Assembly (NCBI GenBank): GCA_030600605.1
Contig: JAUVLT010000004.1
Span: 1-48,985 of the forward strand
Length of the DNA: 48,985 nt
Origin: Mycoplasmatota bacterium
GTDB taxonomy: Bacteria; Bacillota_I; Bacilli_A; Izemoplasmatales; Izemoplasmataceae
Direction of reading: 5' to 3'
Position 1 is the first letter of the stretch; each line of letters opens with the position of its first letter. Shown piece after piece: positions 26,031-33,242 of the stretch. Under the pieces are notes generated by a model. It did not search any database, was not told where the DNA came from, and worked only from the letters and a program-made list of their open reading frames with translations. A program made the translations under genes and the position numbers.

Positions 26031-28184
26031 TTAATTTCCGTTAATAATTGCAATCAACTCAGTATTACTATTAACATTTTCCATATAATAATCAACTTCA
26101 ATACCTGATTCAATACTATCATATCTTGAATCAGTTAACATTCCAGTACTACTTATTAACAATCCTGATCCATCAGGTGTTAATATAGCAGCAATTGAGC
26201 AAGCACCACCACTTGAGTTTTGACCAACAATAGTAGCAATACCCATATCTTTAGCAACACTTGTCATTAAGTTAGCAGCACTAAATGTAACTCCAGATGT
26301 TAGAATGTACCAATCAACATCAGCAGCAGTATTTTCAGTACTCATAAACCATGATTCAGTAGCTCCACTAGTTACATCTTTACTATGAATTCCAATTGGT
26401 TCATCAGTTAAGAATCCTAATATTTGGAAAGTACTTCCTAGTATTCCTCCGCCATTACAAGTTAAATCAATAACAATGCTTTCAACTGTACCAAGCGCAA
26501 GTAATGCATTCAAACTAGCTTCAAATTCATCTGGTGTTTCAGCTTCAAATCCATCAATAAAAATAATTCCGATTTTACCACCATCAATAACTCGATAGGC
26601 TGATTTAGAATCACATGCATCCTCTAAATCCCAATATGTTTCATAATATTCTTGAGAGTTAGGGCCTAAGTCACTAAGCATCAAATTTAATTCATAATTG
26701 CTTTCATAGTAACCTGAGAACATATGTGATGTATGTAAATCGTCACGGCTATAAGCAGCTCTAAATATTGCTTTATATAATGCTCTATCATCAGAATTTA
26801 CAAAATTACTATAATATATACTAAATTCATCATAATAACTTTCTACTTCTTGTTCTTCTCTTAATCCATAAAAATAATCAAATATAAAGATAACAAAATC
26901 ATAACTCGCTTCTTTCAAATCATTTGGCATATCTTCGGTATTAAGAGAACTATTCATTACAGTAGTTCCAACTGTATCATCGTCCATCAATTGATAAGTA
27001 TCTACACCCCATAATTTATCACCATTATAATAAACATCATACATTCCACCTGAATAAAATAAATTAGCAAAATGGAAAGGAATTAAATATTTATCATTAT
27101 GAACTACTAAATCAAAATCATAATCATCAAAATCAATAGTTACTACATTTGGATCAGTAGATACATAATTTACTGTTTCTAGTCCAGTCCCAAAATCAGT
27201 TTGTGTTTCTTCAGATATTCCGTCAAAGAATGAAAAATCGTTAATACTTAATGTATTTTGAGTAAAATCATAAAGCATTTCCATATAATAATCATCTTCA
27301 TCTTCTCCACCATCAATTATATAAGAAACTGTTAATTGATCGCCAACTCCAACAACACTCAACTCATCACTTACAATTGCTCCAGTTAATAAAGTAATGA
27401 AATCTTGAACATCAATATATGGTAAATTTCCATTATTCATATAATAGATATTTGCATTCCCACTAGCAACGATATATTCATCAGCTAAACTTTCAAACGG
27501 GAAAGAAACAGTTGAAGTTACTAGATTATCGTCCTCTTTAACAAGATTAAATACAAAATCTTTTGTTTCATCAAATTCACCATTTCTTAAAGATGCAGTT
27601 AGTGTAACTGTCTCATCACCTTCAATAAATCCAGGTCTATTAATATGACCTCTAGTACTTATTAATCTTTCATCACTAGATGCCCATGAAATGTAACTAC
27701 CTTTTTCTCCTCTAGTTGGTAATGTTAAGTCTTCAGTGACATTTAGATTTATACCATCTAATAAGTTTTCTTTGTCATAAGCAACATCTGCTTCATCAGT
27801 ATTTGGAATGATTACTTCATCCAAACTTATAACAGTTGCGTTAAAAGCTTTTTGAAGTGTTATTCCTCCGTAACTTAATGTAGCAACTAATTGGATATAT
27901 TTATCTCCATCTTCGAATAAAGCTCTAACAACAACACCATCATTGCTTATTGCAGCAGGATTATTTGATTCCCATGTAATAACAACATCATGTAATCCAC
28001 TTGTTGGTAAAGTAATATTTTCTATTAAACTATCTATATTTCCTAAAGTTAATGCTTCTTGTGCTTCTAATATTTTTTCAGCATCTGTTAAAACAACCGG
28101 GTCATCAATAACAGGTTCAGGATTACATGCTGAAAGTGTGAACACCATCGTTAAAAAAAGTAAAAATATAAATCCTTTTTTCAT
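26031..28184 (-). CDS. Lipoprotein with two atrophied Ig domains and an S41 peptidase-like domain
   Basis: A 717-aa surface lipoprotein; lipobox FTLSAC lipidates C20. Two atrophied-Ig-type domains lie at about 35-120 and 136-215, each with LPT-x-G ... W-x-SS and a closing V-x-L-x-A-x-L, the same module type found in OppA. A middle domain (about 222-400) is unassigned. The carboxy-terminal 185 residues resemble family S41 peptidases: IGIIFIDGFE, DLTCNGGGILG (574-584) and the nucleophile motif TSGVTFSAANLM with Ser635. The CtpA catalytic Lys position (usually GKG after the nucleophile strand) reads GQNSSGGACS, so it is either a tricorn-like variant or inactive. Ribosome site AGGAGGAG. Probably a surface protease or a peptide-binding protein (inference). 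Confidence 0.82.
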   Translation of the reverse strand: MKKGFIFLLFLTMVFTLSACNPEPVIDDPVVLTDAEKILEAQEALTLGNIDSLIENITLPTSGLHDVVITWESNNPAAISNDGVVVRALFEDGDKYIQLVATLSYGGITLQKAFNATVISLDEVIIPNTDEADVAYDKENLLDGINLNVTEDLTLPTRGEKGSYISWASSDERLISTRGHINRPGFIEGDETVTLTASLRNGEFDETKDFVFNLVKEDDNLVTSTVSFPFESLADEYIVASGNANIYYMNNGNLPYIDVQDFITLLTGAIVSDELSVVGVGDQLTVSYIIDGGEDEDDYYMEMLYDFTQNTLSINDFSFFDGISEETQTDFGTGLETVNYVSTDPNVVTIDFDDYDFDLVVHNDKYLIPFHFANLFYSGGMYDVYYNGDKLWGVDTYQLMDDDTVGTTVMNSSLNTEDMPNDLKEASYDFVIFIFDYFYGLREEQEVESYYDEFSIYYSNFVNSDDRALYKAIFRAAYSRDDLHTSHMFSGYYESNYELNLMLSDLGPNSQEYYETYWDLEDACDSKSAYRVIDGGKIGIIFIDGFEAETPDEFEASLNALLALGTVESIVIDLTCNGGGILGSTFQILGFLTDEPIGIHSKDVTSGATESWFMSTENTAADVDWYILTSGVTFSAANLMTSVAKDMGIATIVGQNSSGGACSIAAILTPDGSGLLISSTGMLTDSRYDSIESGIEVDYYMENVNSNTELIAIINGN

Positions 28185-28262: not shown

Positions 28263-28288
28263 AGACCAACAAATTATAATGCTGGTCT
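28263..28288 (-). terminator. Terminator of the methyltransferase-GH3-GGDEF operon
   Basis: Leftward: AGACCAGCA, 8-nt loop, TGTTGGTCT with one G-U pair, then TTTTTTA. It overlaps the stop codon of the GGDEF/HD-GYP gene. Confidence 0.82.
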
Positions 28289-30784
28289 GTTTTCCAAACT
28301 TAAAGTGTCTAATTTTCCTGTTTCAATCATTGAGATAAAGAGTTTCACTAAAACAGGATCAAATTGTTTACTTGCATTTTTCTTTAATTCATAAATTGCT
28401 TGTTCCAAAGTAAGACCACGTCGGTAAGGACGATCAGTAGTCATCGCATCGAAAGAATCAGCTATACAAATAACCCTTCCAAGCAATGGAATATTCTCTC
28501 CTTTAATTCCTCTAGGATACCCTTGACCATCATAACGTTCATGATGACTAATAATAACAGGAACAGTATCCAATAAATTAGGAATATGTTTAATTATGTT
28601 GATTGATTGAACTACATGTGATTTCATGATTTCCATTTCATCATCGGTTAAAAATCCCGGCTTAGATAAAACACTTTCAGGTATTCCCACCTTACCGATA
28701 TCATGTAGTAATCCGGCGTTTTTAACAATTTCAATATCCTTACTTTCAAAGTTTGCTTCCTTAGCTAAAGCAGCAGCTAATATGGCAACATTATTAGAAT
28801 GACCATATGTGTAATGATCTTTCGCATCAATCATCGCAGCTAATGCGTAAACACTCGACAAATGCGCTGCTTTTATTTGTTCTTGAATTTCACTGTTAGC
28901 ATTTCTCGAAGTATGATTTTCAATATATAGCATTGCTTTATTTCGACCACTTTGTTTTCCATAATACATTGCTTCATCTGATTTTCTTAAAACATCTTCA
29001 AGAGTATTTCCATCATCCGGATATGAAGCTGCCCCTATTGTTACAGTTAAGAATTCTTTAATATCACTTGATAATAAAAATTCATCTTCCACCGCTCTTC
29101 TAATTCTTTCAATTGCTTTCAAAGTTATTGGACCGGAAATATTTGGCATAAAGATAACAAATTCTTCTCCACCATATCTTACAATTAAATCATCTTTATA
29201 ACTGTTTTTACTTAAAATATCAGCTATTCTTTTTAACGCTTCATCACCTGCAAAATGCCCATACAAATCATTATAAATTTTAAACTGATCAATATCGACC
29301 ATAGCAAGGCTAAACTTTTCAAACGTTTCATTTAGTATCCAATTTGAAACAGTATCATGAAAATATCGATGATTATATAATTTTGTTAATTCATCTGTAA
29401 TTGATTGTTTTTTCATAATTTCAATTGTTTTCGCATTTTCAATAATGGCAGCTGCGTTATTAATAATTGTTTGTAAGAATTCTGTTTCATCTTCACTGTA
29501 TGGTGTATCATCACTTCTTCCTGATATGATAACCATTCCAATAAGATCATCTAAATATCTTATGGGAGCAATAATTTCTGTATCTAATAATTTGATTACT
29601 TGTTTTTCTTGATCCCATAATCCCTTAAAACTAACATGATTATTGATTTGTGAACTCAATAATAAAGAATTTCCATTCTTAAACCAACTCACAATCGGAT
29701 GATTAAATTTGAGATGAAGATTACTATGATCTGAATATTCTAAAGTTGTATCACTTAAGATATACTTATTAGAATTTTTCAACATAATACTTATTTCTTT
29801 TGAATCAATAGCATTTCTAATTGCCTTAATAAGAGAACCAGTTATAATATCAAGACTAAGTGCTGAGTTAACAAGATTACTAAATTCTCTTAAGATTATT
29901 TGACGATCTGTTGTCGCTCTAAAAAAGATATGATTTATCCATTTCTGGAGTAATCTTCTTATTGGCTCTAATAGTAAAAATACTGGTACCATAAATAATA
30001 CTGTTGTAAAAATATCGGTAATCCCCCAAAATGTTAATGTTTGATATGAAAATATTACTACACTTACATAGATTACAAATAAAACTACATTATATAAGGA
30101 AAAAGATAGTCCTTTTTTAACTACTAAGTTTATTTCTAAAAACTTATTACGATATATTGAATACGTGATTAATACCGCATTAGTAGCATTAAATAAGATA
30201 TCAATCCCATATTCTCCTAAAGTAGTATTTAAGTTTATTGCAGCTCCAATAAGCACCAAAGAAATCCCAATTATTACTAATTTAACCTTCTTAATACTTA
30301 TTTCATTTCTTTTAACTTTTAATACCATATTTATAATAGCTAAAAGACTGTATGAAATTCCTACTACAGCAACTACATATGCCCCATATCCTATTTCATA
30401 AGTAAAGATTCCCTCACTATAAGAAGCTGATTTCACCACGTGTCCCATAAGAGCTAGAGTGATTTGGACAGCAACTAAAAAATATCCAATATAAAGAACA
30501 AACTTACCCTTATAATTTTCTGATAACACGTAACTAAATCTTAATAATAAAACAGGAACACTTACAAATCCAATTAAGAGGAATTTATCCCAAAACAGTG
30601 AACTTGGAGGCATATCTGTCTTCATTAAAAACGAGCCTAAAGACCATATAATCATCGCGATTATATAAAGACTAAAGGCTTTAGATAGTTTTGTTTTATT
30701 AGAAGATAAAATAATAACTAATATAAATATATACAAAACTAATGAGATTATTGGAATAATTGTTATTTCAGTCAAAATTATCAT
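28274..30784 (-). CDS. Membrane sensor with GAF, GGDEF and HD-GYP domains (c-di-GMP turnover)
   Basis: An 836-aa signalling protein. Eight or so helices fill residues 1-275 (histidine-kinase-type 7TM sensor layout). A GAF-like domain lies at about 300-455, a diguanylate cyclase at about 462-620 and an HD-GYP phosphodiesterase at about 636-820. The cyclase active site RYGGEEF (536-542) is intact. The inhibitory RxxD site is absent, since the expected position reads YKDD. The phosphodiesterase has HDIGK (694-698) and HHERYDGQGYP (747-757), both intact. It may thus both make and degrade c-di-GMP, switched by the sensor. Start has GGAGTGAT upstream and follows the GH3-like stop by 20 nt, so the three leftward genes form one operon. 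Confidence 0.92.
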   Translation of the reverse strand: MIILTEITIIPIISLVLYIFILVIILSSNKTKLSKAFSLYIIAMIIWSLGSFLMKTDMPPSSLFWDKFLLIGFVSVPVLLLRFSYVLSENYKGKFVLYIGYFLVAVQITLALMGHVVKSASYSEGIFTYEIGYGAYVVAVVGISYSLLAIINMVLKVKRNEISIKKVKLVIIGISLVLIGAAINLNTTLGEYGIDILFNATNAVLITYSIYRNKFLEINLVVKKGLSFSLYNVVLFVIYVSVVIFSYQTLTFWGITDIFTTVLFMVPVFLLLEPIRRLLQKWINHIFFRATTDRQIILREFSNLVNSALSLDIITGSLIKAIRNAIDSKEISIMLKNSNKYILSDTTLEYSDHSNLHLKFNHPIVSWFKNGNSLLLSSQINNHVSFKGLWDQEKQVIKLLDTEIIAPIRYLDDLIGMVIISGRSDDTPYSEDETEFLQTIINNAAAIIENAKTIEIMKKQSITDELTKLYNHRYFHDTVSNWILNETFEKFSLAMVDIDQFKIYNDLYGHFAGDEALKRIADILSKNSYKDDLIVRYGGEEFVIFMPNISGPITLKAIERIRRAVEDEFLLSSDIKEFLTVTIGAASYPDDGNTLEDVLRKSDEAMYYGKQSGRNKAMLYIENHTSRNANSEIQEQIKAAHLSSVYALAAMIDAKDHYTYGHSNNVAILAAALAKEANFESKDIEIVKNAGLLHDIGKVGIPESVLSKPGFLTDDEMEIMKSHVVQSINIIKHIPNLLDTVPVIISHHERYDGQGYPRGIKGENIPLLGRVICIADSFDAMTTDRPYRRGLTLEQAIYELKKNASKQFDPVLVKLFISMIETGKLDTLSLENRPAL

Positions 30785-30804: not shown

Positions 30805-32379
30805 TTATACCCCATCACTGCATGTGATCAATTTTGCCAACTCTTCCCCAGAAGGATTTATTTTTGAAATATTATTGTTAAATAATTGTTTATATTTTTC
30901 AAAAGATCCATCTTCTAATATTGTTAATTTTAATGGATCATGTCCAAGCAAAGCATGAACATCATTATAATCTGAATCTAATAATTTCATTTGATCATTA
31001 ATCTTTTCTCGAATACCAGAAATACTCTCTCCCAGTCCATTCTCGATATATATATTGATGTACGGTCTTGACTCTCCATACTCTTTACAAGCTGTCCAAT
31101 CCTTAATTTCTAATCCTGATAATTTGATTGAATCTCCAATAATCTGTTTAGTAATTCTTGTAAAACCTGAGAGATCAATTATATTATTAACACGATCAAG
31201 GTATTTAACTTGTGGTAAATTTATTTCATCTTCAACATTAGTTAGACCAACACATTTTAGCACATCACCAATTCGATATCTAACAAATGCTCCTCCTCTT
31301 AATTTTGTTATTACTAATTCGTAAGTTTCTCCAGGAATTATCTCATTAAATAAAAGTGTTTTTGGAATATATCCTTCAATCTCCTCTTCTTTTATCATTT
31401 CCTCTTCTGGAATAAACTCTATGAAGTTTACATCTGGAAAAAACGTTAATCCATTCCTGCTCCAAGTTTCAGTGGCTACTGCCGCTGATTCAGTTCCACC
31501 AAATATCTCTAGTGGAGTTTTTCCAAAGTAATACTCAATTTGAGATTTATAAGTATCTGAATCGGTACCCCCACATACTATACCTTTAAATTCAAATAAA
31601 TCTTTAGGAAGTAATCGTTCTCTTTTAATTTTCTTTTTATACCCTGCTTTTAACATTTTAACAGCTTGTTTGAAATTTGATGGCATTCCAATTCGACCAC
31701 TATTTGATCCGCTTTCAAAACCCTCTCCAATTTTCACTAAAACACTAGATAAGCCGAAAAATAAATCAGCTCCCCTTTTAACTGCTAAATTAAACCCAAC
31801 TTTGTTTCGATCTCTAAAGCTCAGTTTCTCAGCTTGATCAGTTGATGGTAAATATTTAAAATCAATTTCATGTTTCAAAATATATGGTGCAAATCCAGTA
31901 AGATAAGGCAATGGAGCCATACCATATAAAAAACGATCAAAATTTCGAAGTGTGAAATGACCTCTTTTTTTACTAGTCGATAATATTAAACTAGATAAAA
32001 ACATCTTAGTATGTTCCTCTACCATTGTTTTTGAATACGGAGCTAATTTAATTGGCTTTTTACCACCTTTCCAAGTTGTTTGAACCCAGTGTAATGGTTC
32101 ACTTGGTAAATCTTCACTTCTTTGGTTAAGTAAAGTATCCGCATAATCATCATAAGTTGTAAGAGGTACATATTTCCTAAAATCATTCATATTATGAATA
32201 TCAGTAGGTCCTAACAATTTTTTACCCAGTTTACATTTGCTTAATAAGTCAATTTGCTCTAAAAGTAATCTCTCTTGAATTTCCATGAATTCAGAAAGTT
32301 CTAAATCTAGAAACCCTAAATAAGCTTTCCAAATCCTGTCATAATCTTCATCAAGTAACATTTGTCTCAAGTCTTTCAT
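30805..32379 (-). CDS. GH3-family acyl-adenylating enzyme
   Basis: A 524-aa protein of the GH3 auxin-responsive-promoter family, ATP-dependent enzymes that adenylate a carboxylic acid and usually join it to an amino acid. Visible motifs: LAPYSKTMVEEHTKM (amino-terminal ATP region, GxxS/T-like), FGGTESAAVA (320s) and the family mark ITKLRGGAFVRYRIGDVL, followed by KYLDRVNNIIDLSG. Bacterial members lie in lipid or secondary-metabolite clusters and are mostly uncharacterised. The ATG at 32379 follows GGAGG by 5 nt and overlaps the methyltransferase stop by four bases (ATGA). Pairing with a membrane methyltransferase suggests modification of a lipid or small acid (inference). Confidence 0.82.
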   Translation of the reverse strand: MKDLRQMLLDEDYDRIWKAYLGFLDLELSEFMEIQERLLLEQIDLLSKCKLGKKLLGPTDIHNMNDFRKYVPLTTYDDYADTLLNQRSEDLPSEPLHWVQTTWKGGKKPIKLAPYSKTMVEEHTKMFLSSLILSTSKKRGHFTLRNFDRFLYGMAPLPYLTGFAPYILKHEIDFKYLPSTDQAEKLSFRDRNKVGFNLAVKRGADLFFGLSSVLVKIGEGFESGSNSGRIGMPSNFKQAVKMLKAGYKKKIKRERLLPKDLFEFKGIVCGGTDSDTYKSQIEYYFGKTPLEIFGGTESAAVATETWSRNGLTFFPDVNFIEFIPEEEMIKEEEIEGYIPKTLLFNEIIPGETYELVITKLRGGAFVRYRIGDVLKCVGLTNVEDEINLPQVKYLDRVNNIIDLSGFTRITKQIIGDSIKLSGLEIKDWTACKEYGESRPYINIYIENGLGESISGIREKINDQMKLLDSDYNDVHALLGHDPLKLTILEDGSFEKYKQLFNNNISKINPSGEELAKLITCSDGV

Positions 32380-32942
32380 CTTTTCCTCCAGTTTAATGTA
32401 GTAAAGCATTTTTCAATGCTTTGATAGCTCGGTAAAATCATTGGTGTTGATTGAATATAGTTTCCATAATTATCAAACAACTTACTAAAAATATAACGTT
32501 CTTGAATAGAGACATAAAGAATATTTATTACAGTCCAAGTTAACCCAGCATAAAGCACAAAGTAATTTTGGAAGTAGATAGCTCCAAAAAGATATACAAA
32601 TAAGAACCATAAAACTCCAGGATGTCTTGAAAGTGCATAAGTTCCTGTCGTAATAAGCCTACTCTTATTTTTATATTGATAAGTATTTTTACCTACTTCA
32701 ATAAAAACTGAATAAATTAATAAAAGCAATGCTAAAATTGCAATTGTCAAAGAAATAATTCTAAATGAAAATGAAAAAGTAATATCACTATTAATTCTCA
32801 CAATGAGTACAGTGCTGATAATAATAATTGAAAAACCACTAACGCCAAAAAAGTATTTAACAATGCTCTTCTCAAACAAAGAACAAATATCAAATAATAA
32901 TAACATTACGAATCCTAAAACTCCTAATCCCAAATAAATCAT
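32376..32942 (-). CDS. Membrane methyltransferase of the isoprenylcysteine/phospholipid type
   Basis: A 188-aa protein with five or so helices. The carboxy-terminal half has the ICMT/PEMT pattern: ITTGTYALSRHPGVLWF (cofactor-binding Arg-His-Pro) and QERYIFSKLFDNYGNYIQSTPMILP, which corresponds to the ERxL...FGxxYxxY...P end motif. Such enzymes use S-adenosylmethionine to methylate lipids or prenylated carboxylates within the membrane. I choose the ATG at 32942 because GAGG lies 8 nt upstream; the ATG at 32948 is too close. First gene of the operon with the GH3-like and GGDEF/HD-GYP genes. Confidence 0.72.
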   Translation of the reverse strand: MIYLGLGVLGFVMLLLFDICSLFEKSIVKYFFGVSGFSIIIISTVLIVRINSDITFSFSFRIISLTIAILALLLLIYSVFIEVGKNTYQYKNKSRLITTGTYALSRHPGVLWFLFVYLFGAIYFQNYFVLYAGLTWTVINILYVSIQERYIFSKLFDNYGNYIQSTPMILPSYQSIEKCFTTLNWRKR

Positions 32943-33033
32943 CAACATTACCTCACTTTCAAAATTTCTTATCAGTCTTTATAAAAACAATCCTTTGTAT
33001 ATATATTAAATAATAGTAATATATATGAAAAGG

Positions 33034-33061
33034 TCATATATGAGCCATAGACCATATATGA
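33034..33061. repeat. Two copies of the palindrome CATATATG, 18 bp apart
   Basis: TCATATATGA at 33034-33043 and CATATATGA at 33053-33061, within GGTC/GACC context. They lie between the leftward methyltransferase operon and the rightward buk operon, about 95 bp from the former's start. Could be a paired operator; in such AT-rich DNA chance is possible. Confidence 0.35.
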
Positions 33062-33167
33062 ACTACTTTTGTAATTTTTAAAATTAAAATATCCAAGAGT
33101 TTTTGATACTTATAAACGGCTTTATTTAGCGTGTATTATCCTGATTGGAAAAATCTTTAAAATCGTC

Positions 33168-33196
33168 TTGCTGTGTAAACGCTATCATGTTATAAT
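33168..33196 (+). promoter_or_regulatory. buk-ptb-PEPCK operon promoter
   Basis: -35 TTGCTG (33168-33173), 17-nt spacer, -10 TATAAT (33191-33196). Predicted start near 33203, giving a leader of about 40 nt to the buk start. Confidence 0.78.
33174..33187. promoter_or_regulatory. cre site inside the buk promoter spacer
   Basis: TGTAAACGCTATCA fits the cre pattern TGWAANCGNTNWCA at all 14 positions. It fills the spacer between -35 and -10, where a bound CcpA-type protein would prevent polymerase binding. Expected effect: repression when sugar is plentiful. Confidence 0.72.
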
Positions 33197-33242
33197 GTAG
33201 TCGTGATTTTTCAAAATTTTTATTACAACTTAGGAGGAACTT

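Follow-up and report, generated by a model that had tools for sequence, protein, structure and literature searches.

Plant GH3 enzymes, to which JAR1 and PBS3 belong, are acyl acid amido synthetases; members of the family inactivate acids such as auxin by conjugation. For bacteria, the available text of PMC12493201 describes a GH3-like enzyme, OlsH, and an N-methyltransferase, OlsG, which are encoded in one operon and make methylated ornithine lipids in the planctomycete Singulisphaera acidiphila; OlsH catalyses the ATP-dependent N-acylation of an amino acid, its activity is abolished when S115 is replaced by alanine, and it sets a precedent for the synthesis of N-acyl amino acids by bacterial GH3 enzymes. 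In Burkholderia, the signal BDSF involves a signal synthase, RpfF, and a receptor, RpfR, that turns over c-di-GMP within a single protein, as set out in the accessible sections of PMC8846402, PMC6361424 and PMC13220807. In Ralstonia, as far as the accessible descriptions go, the PhcB methyltransferase makes a methyl-ester lipid signal that is sensed by a sensor of the same operon (PhcB/PhcS/PhcR). Few receptors of cell-cell signals are known in c-di-GMP networks, according to PMC8846402.

The locus described here lies in a Candidatus Izemoplasma-type genome and comprises three consecutive genes on the minus strand of the window, by which we mean the whole stretch of 48,985 nucleotides that was analysed. 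The first (32376..32942) encodes MT, an ICMT/PEMT-like integral membrane methyltransferase of 188 amino acids; its open reading frame opens at 32948, and we prefer the ATG at 32942 on the basis of ribosome-site spacing, as we read it, and of relatives that begin M-x-Y. The second (30805..32379, 524 amino acids) encodes a putative acyl-adenylase/amido synthetase of a divergent subfamily of the GH3 family. The longest reading frame for GH3 opens at 32409; the ATG at 32379 is preceded by GGAGGAAAAG, yields an ATGA overlap with the MT stop and is backed by the relatives. A sequence-only reading of this DNA had already coupled these two genes; both reading frames and their overlap are real, and the motifs it cited, GGAFVRYRIGDV in GH3 and LSRHPGVLW in MT, are exactly as it gave them. 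It missed the third gene, which starts 20 bp after GH3 (28274..30784) and encodes a predicted 7TM-GAF-GGDEF-HD-GYP sensor of 836 amino acids, whose N-terminal membrane domain (residues 1-290; 29915..30784) is the putative ligand domain. A terminator-like hairpin lies at the end of the sensor gene (28263..28288, minus strand), and the one hairpin found by the scan, against 1.3 expected, is not above chance. The next gene downstream (26031-28184), whose lipoprotein-like product contains an S41 peptidase domain and atrophied Ig domains, is not kept with the trio across families.

MT, GH3 and the sensor form a conserved unit, as shown by their fixed order, tight spacing and congruent divergence and by the near-exclusive co-occurrence of the sensor with GH3. 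The order MT-GH3-sensor occurs at 37 loci, many of them from close relatives; 35 are on one contig and two are interrupted only by contig ends. They come from five families of the window's class, from a second group at phylum level that includes Clostridium transplantifaecale, and from DNA beside a prophage. Among 101 relatives, some of them named (Candidatus Izimaplasma HR2, Ca. Izemoplasma acidinucleici), GH3 is present in 18, and in all 18 it is immediately preceded by MT and immediately followed by the sensor, with MT split by a contig end in G002 and the sensor cut by a contig end or N run in G005, G037 and G012. The pairing of GH3 with MT proposed in the earlier reading is thus kept in 18/18 GH3-bearing relatives and is not due to chance, in line with the functional coupling that it had suggested; as a two-gene unit the proposal was incomplete, since the sensor accompanies the pair in every case.

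Wider searches gave the same picture. A GH3 profile matched 21 of 395 genomes of the class, 20 with GH3 of the operon type and one with an ordinary GH3 (G329). Seven of eight further operon-type genomes of the class carry MT-GH3-sensor, and in the eighth (G124) the contig ends inside GH3. In a phylum-level sample the profile matched 13 of 392 genomes, all in the window's class. The Clostridium transplantifaecale genome carries the MT-GH3-sensor operon, and in its phylum the profile matched 26 of 299 genomes, ten at E <=1e-98 and 16 at only 1e-19 or weaker, two clearly separated groups; nine of the ten strong matches have MT-GH3-sensor on one contig and the other (G850) is split over two contigs. 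The MT of G584 was located by six-frame search. The sensor N-terminal profile gave 22 strong matches in the 395 class genomes, 20 of which are exactly the 20 operon-GH3 genomes (hypergeometric 1e-31, a value that ignores relatedness). Two sensors are orphans (L127 8225-10693 in G118 and L128 6290-8749 in G366), with no MT or GH3 nearby and no GH3 match in the genome, and a weak match in G192 (1e-6) is a 1038-aa protein with no MT or GH3 adjoining. Over 30 loci, all pairwise distance correlations among GH3, MT and the N- and C-terminal parts of the sensor fall between 0.89 and 0.97 (GH3 with the sensor N-terminus 0.949, GH3 with the sensor C-terminus 0.969, MT with GH3 0.892). As a control we used 11 loci with an ordinary GH3, ten from the C. 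transplantifaecale phylum and G329: neither MT nor the sensor N-terminus was found in the whole fetched stretch at any of the ten, nor at G329. The genes that flank the trio differ between families, and the neighbours are unrelated outside the window's family.

Several loci deserve mention in their own right. On a contig of the IMG/VR viral collection (L126 3974-10202), the operon lies just past the end of a phage region with a peptidase M15-type gene, and the operon DNA there is probably host DNA. In G003 (L074 10488-11390) an in-frame remnant fuses MT residues 3-93 to sensor residues 632-836, with GH3 absent, through either a deletion or an assembly fault. A tblastn search of plasmids with GH3 gave no match. 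In the second phylum group, ordinary GH3 genes have another recurring setting, with MFS transporter and MarR-type genes (L178 5440-8757, L177) or with MFS-like neighbours (L174, L176), identified by Pfam on L178 and by eye in the remainder; at L181 (6335-9210) and L182 an ordinary GH3 adjoins a radical-SAM/B12-binding gene, identified by Pfam on L181 only.

The sensor of the window combines, behind its N-terminal membrane region, a weak GAF match with GGDEF (6e-40) and HD-GYP (HD_5, 5e-39) domains in Pfam, and its motifs RYGGEEF, HDIGK and HHERYDGQGYP are intact. Across the 37 sensors, GGDEF is intact in 22, degenerate in 13 and not covered in two, and HD-GYP is intact in 32, with the domain missing from L169, altered in L172 and, in three, truncated at a contig end or filled with N; since GGDEF is degenerate in 13/37 and HD-GYP absent or altered in 2/37, the sign of the sensor's output is uncertain. 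The Pfam family HisKA_7TM (PF16927) matches 10 of 17 sensors (best 5.6e-14), with no match in the window's own sensor. In a predicted model of residues 1-310 (pLDDT 70), seven helices, the fourth and fifth separated by a beta hairpin, are followed by two further helices. GPCRs make up most of the best Foldseek matches to this model (best E 6e-4, TM about 0.4-0.5), and VIA-align against the GPCR-like domain of LYCHOS reached a maximum Z of 16.9 (205 residues at 3.6 A), with many other GPCRs close behind and with values of Z below about 13 being possibly generic for helical bundles. The model supports a GPCR-like 7TM arrangement of the sensor N-terminus, a fold that says nothing of ligand or function. 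In the window's genome, a scan for GGDEF found 13 places, 11 of them over the cut-off, and a search for PilZ effectors found none; Rfam identified no RNA family in the window and hence no known c-di-GMP riboswitch there.

The assignment of MT to the ICMT/PEMT-like enzymes made in the earlier reading holds. Judged from profiles and motifs, MT is a relative within the ICMT/PEMT superfamily and not an ICMT equivalog: its match to the NCBIfam model isopcys_mtase (2e-9) scores 37.5 bits, far below the curated equivalog cut-off of 160 bits, and no CAAX-type substrate is implied. PEMT matches 15 and ICMT 12 of 18 members. The archaeal Ma-ICMT (PDB 4a2n) is matched at 3.2e-7 by profile and resembles MT in its membrane character, which the hydropathy peaks of MT bear out, and in the aligned RHPG and E/Q-E..Y..Y regions; RH[PI]G and Q[ED]..Y..Y are kept in 36/36 MT homologues. 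The substrate atom could be N, O or S.

We put the probability that the three genes are one functional unit, a ligand-making pair with its own receptor, at roughly one half, and a signal-making-and-sensing system appears to us to be the leading function. GH3 would adenylate a carboxylic acid, probably one that is fatty or otherwise lipophilic, and couple it to an amino acid or an amine. Methylation of this conjugate by the membrane-bound MT, in the simplest case on the free carboxylate as with ICMT, would yield an N-acyl amino acid methyl ester or a similar compound that is neutral and membrane-permeant; the lack of an exporter in the conserved unit suits a lipophilic product. The 7TM domain of the sensor would bind this product within the membrane or from outside, and the bound sensor would alter c-di-GMP turnover, through hydrolysis by HD-GYP, a domain kept in nearly all members, and through synthesis as well in those with an intact GGDEF site. 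Each link, from enzyme to product, from product to receptor and from receptor to behaviour, is one that we infer, and a co-transcribed sensor need not bind the product of its operon. Our best guess for the product remains the methylated lipo-amino acid or signal of the sequence-only reading, with the presence of a sensor gene in the unit making a signal the likelier of the two. The orphan sensors of G118 and G366 are as receptor 'solos' would look. RpfF/RpfR, in which a lipid-signal synthase is joined to a c-di-GMP receptor, and PhcB/PhcS, in which a methyltransferase shares an operon with a sensor kinase, are functional analogues that favour this reading, as does the capacity of OlsH to make N-acyl amino acids.

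We suggest, tentatively and as a conjecture that could well prove wrong, that these operons represent a new class of autoinducer system in low-GC Gram-positive-type lineages, in which a methylated acyl-amino-acid signal made by GH3 and an ICMT-like methyltransferase is perceived by a dedicated GPCR-like 7TM receptor with direct control of c-di-GMP, and orphan receptors eavesdrop. If true, this conserved cassette, carried by uncultured Izemoplasma-type bacteria as well as by Clostridium transplantifaecale and its relatives, would add a new chemical class of signal, bacterial GH3 enzymes would play a part in signalling as the plant members of the family do, and a GPCR-like receptor would be placed in a bacterial signalling circuit. 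As one carrier is a named strain, Clostridium transplantifaecale Marseille-P8228, the idea is testable.

The alternative that survives best is a membrane-lipid operon, in which GH3 and MT produce an amino lipid with a structural role, comparable to the methylated ornithine lipids, and the sensor monitors membrane state or that lipid and adjusts c-di-GMP, with no signal passing between cells. In its favour, structural lipids are the product of OlsH-OlsG-OlsI, an operon that likewise combines a GH3 with a methyltransferase (PMC12493201), and both MT and the sensor are membrane proteins. However, in our survey of genes beside the trio neither an OlsI-type acyltransferase nor any other lipid gene was conserved, and one dedicated receptor per synthase pair, together with the two orphan receptors, fits signalling better. 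We consider the lipid operon unlikely, although it is the alternative to which we would give most weight.

It is more doubtful still that GH3 and MT inactivate a carboxylic acid from the environment or a host and that the sensor detects this acid. The family match to the plant GH3s, which inactivate acids by conjugation, would agree with such a role, as would the detoxification-like setting of ordinary GH3 genes by MarR and MFS genes in some Clostridia-type genomes. Yet the same survey found neither a transporter or exporter nor a MarR gene conserved with the trio, and the composition of the operon is fixed across different families.

The identity of GH3 as an acyl-adenylase is where the sequence-only reading stands in part: family membership and motifs 2 and 3 are upheld, whereas motif 1 is altered and adenylation is not assured. 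In Pfam, the window's GH3 matches GH3_M (4e-13) and GH3 (3.7e-8), and among aligned members GH3_M and the N-terminal GH3 domain are found in 18/18 and GH3_C in 11/18; JAR1 is a profile match (1.1e-9). An AlphaFold2 model built on an alignment of nine sequences is of low confidence (pLDDT 56); its best 24 Foldseek matches are all GH3 structures, and at this pLDDT neither motif 1 nor the substrate pocket can be located in it with confidence, so that we draw no substrate from it. GH3 shares with the plant acyl acid amido synthetases the fold, motifs 2 and 3 and the central and C-terminal domains, and differs from them in motif 1 and in the weakness of its N-terminal Pfam domain (33 bits, against 292 bits in one of the ordinary GH3s found in the second phylum group). 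The corresponding motifs of JAR1 are SSGTSQGRPK, YGSSE and GLYRYRLGD, and motif 1 of OlsH is TSGTTQGATK (available text of PMC12493201). In the window they read TTWKGG, FGGTE and GGAFVRYRIGD. Motif 1 is TTW[KRE]GG in 32 of 36 homologues (TTWEGA once) and TSG[KR] in the other four (L167, L168, L169, L172). Relative to S/T-S-G-T...K, the hydroxyl residues and K are retained, and G and T are replaced; the first threonine, the second hydroxyl residue and the downstream lysine are kept in 36/36 covering sequences, and the position of OlsH S115 is S or T in 36/36. Nearly all complete GH3 sequences have motifs 2 ([FY][GA]GTE) and 3 (GGxFxRYRxxD); neither pattern was found in L172, and motif 2 was not found in L126. 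The alignment indicates that motif 1 is remodelled, not eroded or lost.

These observations bear on the view that motif 1 has been lost and that GH3 does not adenylate but acts in binding or regulation, perhaps as a scaffold for the sensor or MT. The opening TTW in place of TSG and the acidic E at the fourth position in many homologues would be expected of such a protein, but not the near-universal motifs 2 and 3, the invariant hydroxyl residues and lysine, or the TSG[KR] retained by four members, and we give this view little credence. A mere co-location of the three genes by shared transfer, with no shared function, is very improbable: the unit does occur in scattered lineages and once beside a prophage, but its fixed order and tight spacing despite different flanks, the congruent divergence of its genes and their joint absence all speak against it.

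Upstream of the window's MT lies a palindrome, GGCTCATATATGACC in the minus-strand reading (33031..33046), with a second, imperfect copy at 33050-33063. It is conserved in the window's family, where the pattern GG[GC]TCATATATGACC occurs about 60-160 bp upstream of MT at 16 of 18 loci (10-base core, at most one mismatch) and is absent at two; it is absent at 18 of 19 loci outside the family, the remaining one having a distal AT-rich near-match. In seven genomes it is rare, with 2-6 strand matches each, and a reversed-pattern control gave none in six and three in one; in the window's genome the operon is the sole site at that threshold. Among the other sites is the gene encoding an HTH/TPR-type regulator of roughly 300 amino acids (G014, G034, G028, G023, G001), which may resemble the Rgg-type regulators, a likeness based on weak matches (HTH_3 0.0014, PDB 0.018, TPR in one homologue only). 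Strong orthologues of this regulator (E <=1e-60) are found in 9 of 101 relatives, all nine with the operon; nine of the 18 operon genomes are without a strong match, some being incomplete, with short fragments in G007 and G040. In seven of the nine orthologues the palindrome lies about 20-40 bp upstream of the regulator gene. For a dedicated regulator of the operon this is no more than suggestive; in the window's family the operon would be controlled by a palindrome-binding factor, possibly the TPR-type regulator, whose gene usually bears the same palindrome.

The palindrome also occurs near triple MreB-type gene clusters (L225, L227, L234; Pfam on one protein). The divergent neighbours, which we take from their sequences to be butyrate kinase, phosphotransbutyrylase-like and PEP-carboxykinase-like genes, were considered as members of the unit and rejected, as their divergent conservation is confined to the window's family and they are absent from G096 and from other families. 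At about 33170-33210 of the window, a conserved ATGATAGCGTTTNCA lies by a TATAAT-like box of the divergent butyrate-kinase-like gene and resembles the consensus of a cre site.

The full-text literature searched, which takes in few subscription papers and no bioRxiv preprints, yielded no paper describing the MT-GH3-sensor set, and in the accessible text of a 2026 FEMS review of quorum sensing (PMC13220807) the terms 'GH3', 'isoprenylcysteine' and 'HD-GYP' were not found. The earlier statement that no such pathway is assigned has been partly overtaken by the methylated ornithine lipids of OlsH/OlsG (available text of PMC12493201). On that description, both systems encode a bacterial GH3-like enzyme with a methyltransferase; OlsH, however, keeps a near-canonical motif 1, OlsG is an ornithine N-methyltransferase, OlsI is an alpha/beta-hydrolase acyltransferase, no sensor is described in the Ols operon and its product is a membrane lipid, not a signal. 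The trio is without an OlsI acyltransferase or an OlsG-type methyltransferase, and GH3 is partnered instead by a membrane MT and a sensor. RpfF is a crotonase-type synthase. RpfR, as far as it is described in the text available, is a PAS-GGDEF-EAL protein of Gram-negative bacteria, whereas the trio joins GH3 and MT to a 7TM-GAF-GGDEF-HD-GYP receptor, and the accessible accounts of PhcB/PhcS/PhcR give no GH3 and an output through a histidine kinase rather than c-di-GMP. Because its defining partners are different, the trio belongs to none of RpfF/RpfR, PhcB/PhcS and OlsH/OlsG, of which OlsH/OlsG is its nearest biosynthetic precedent.
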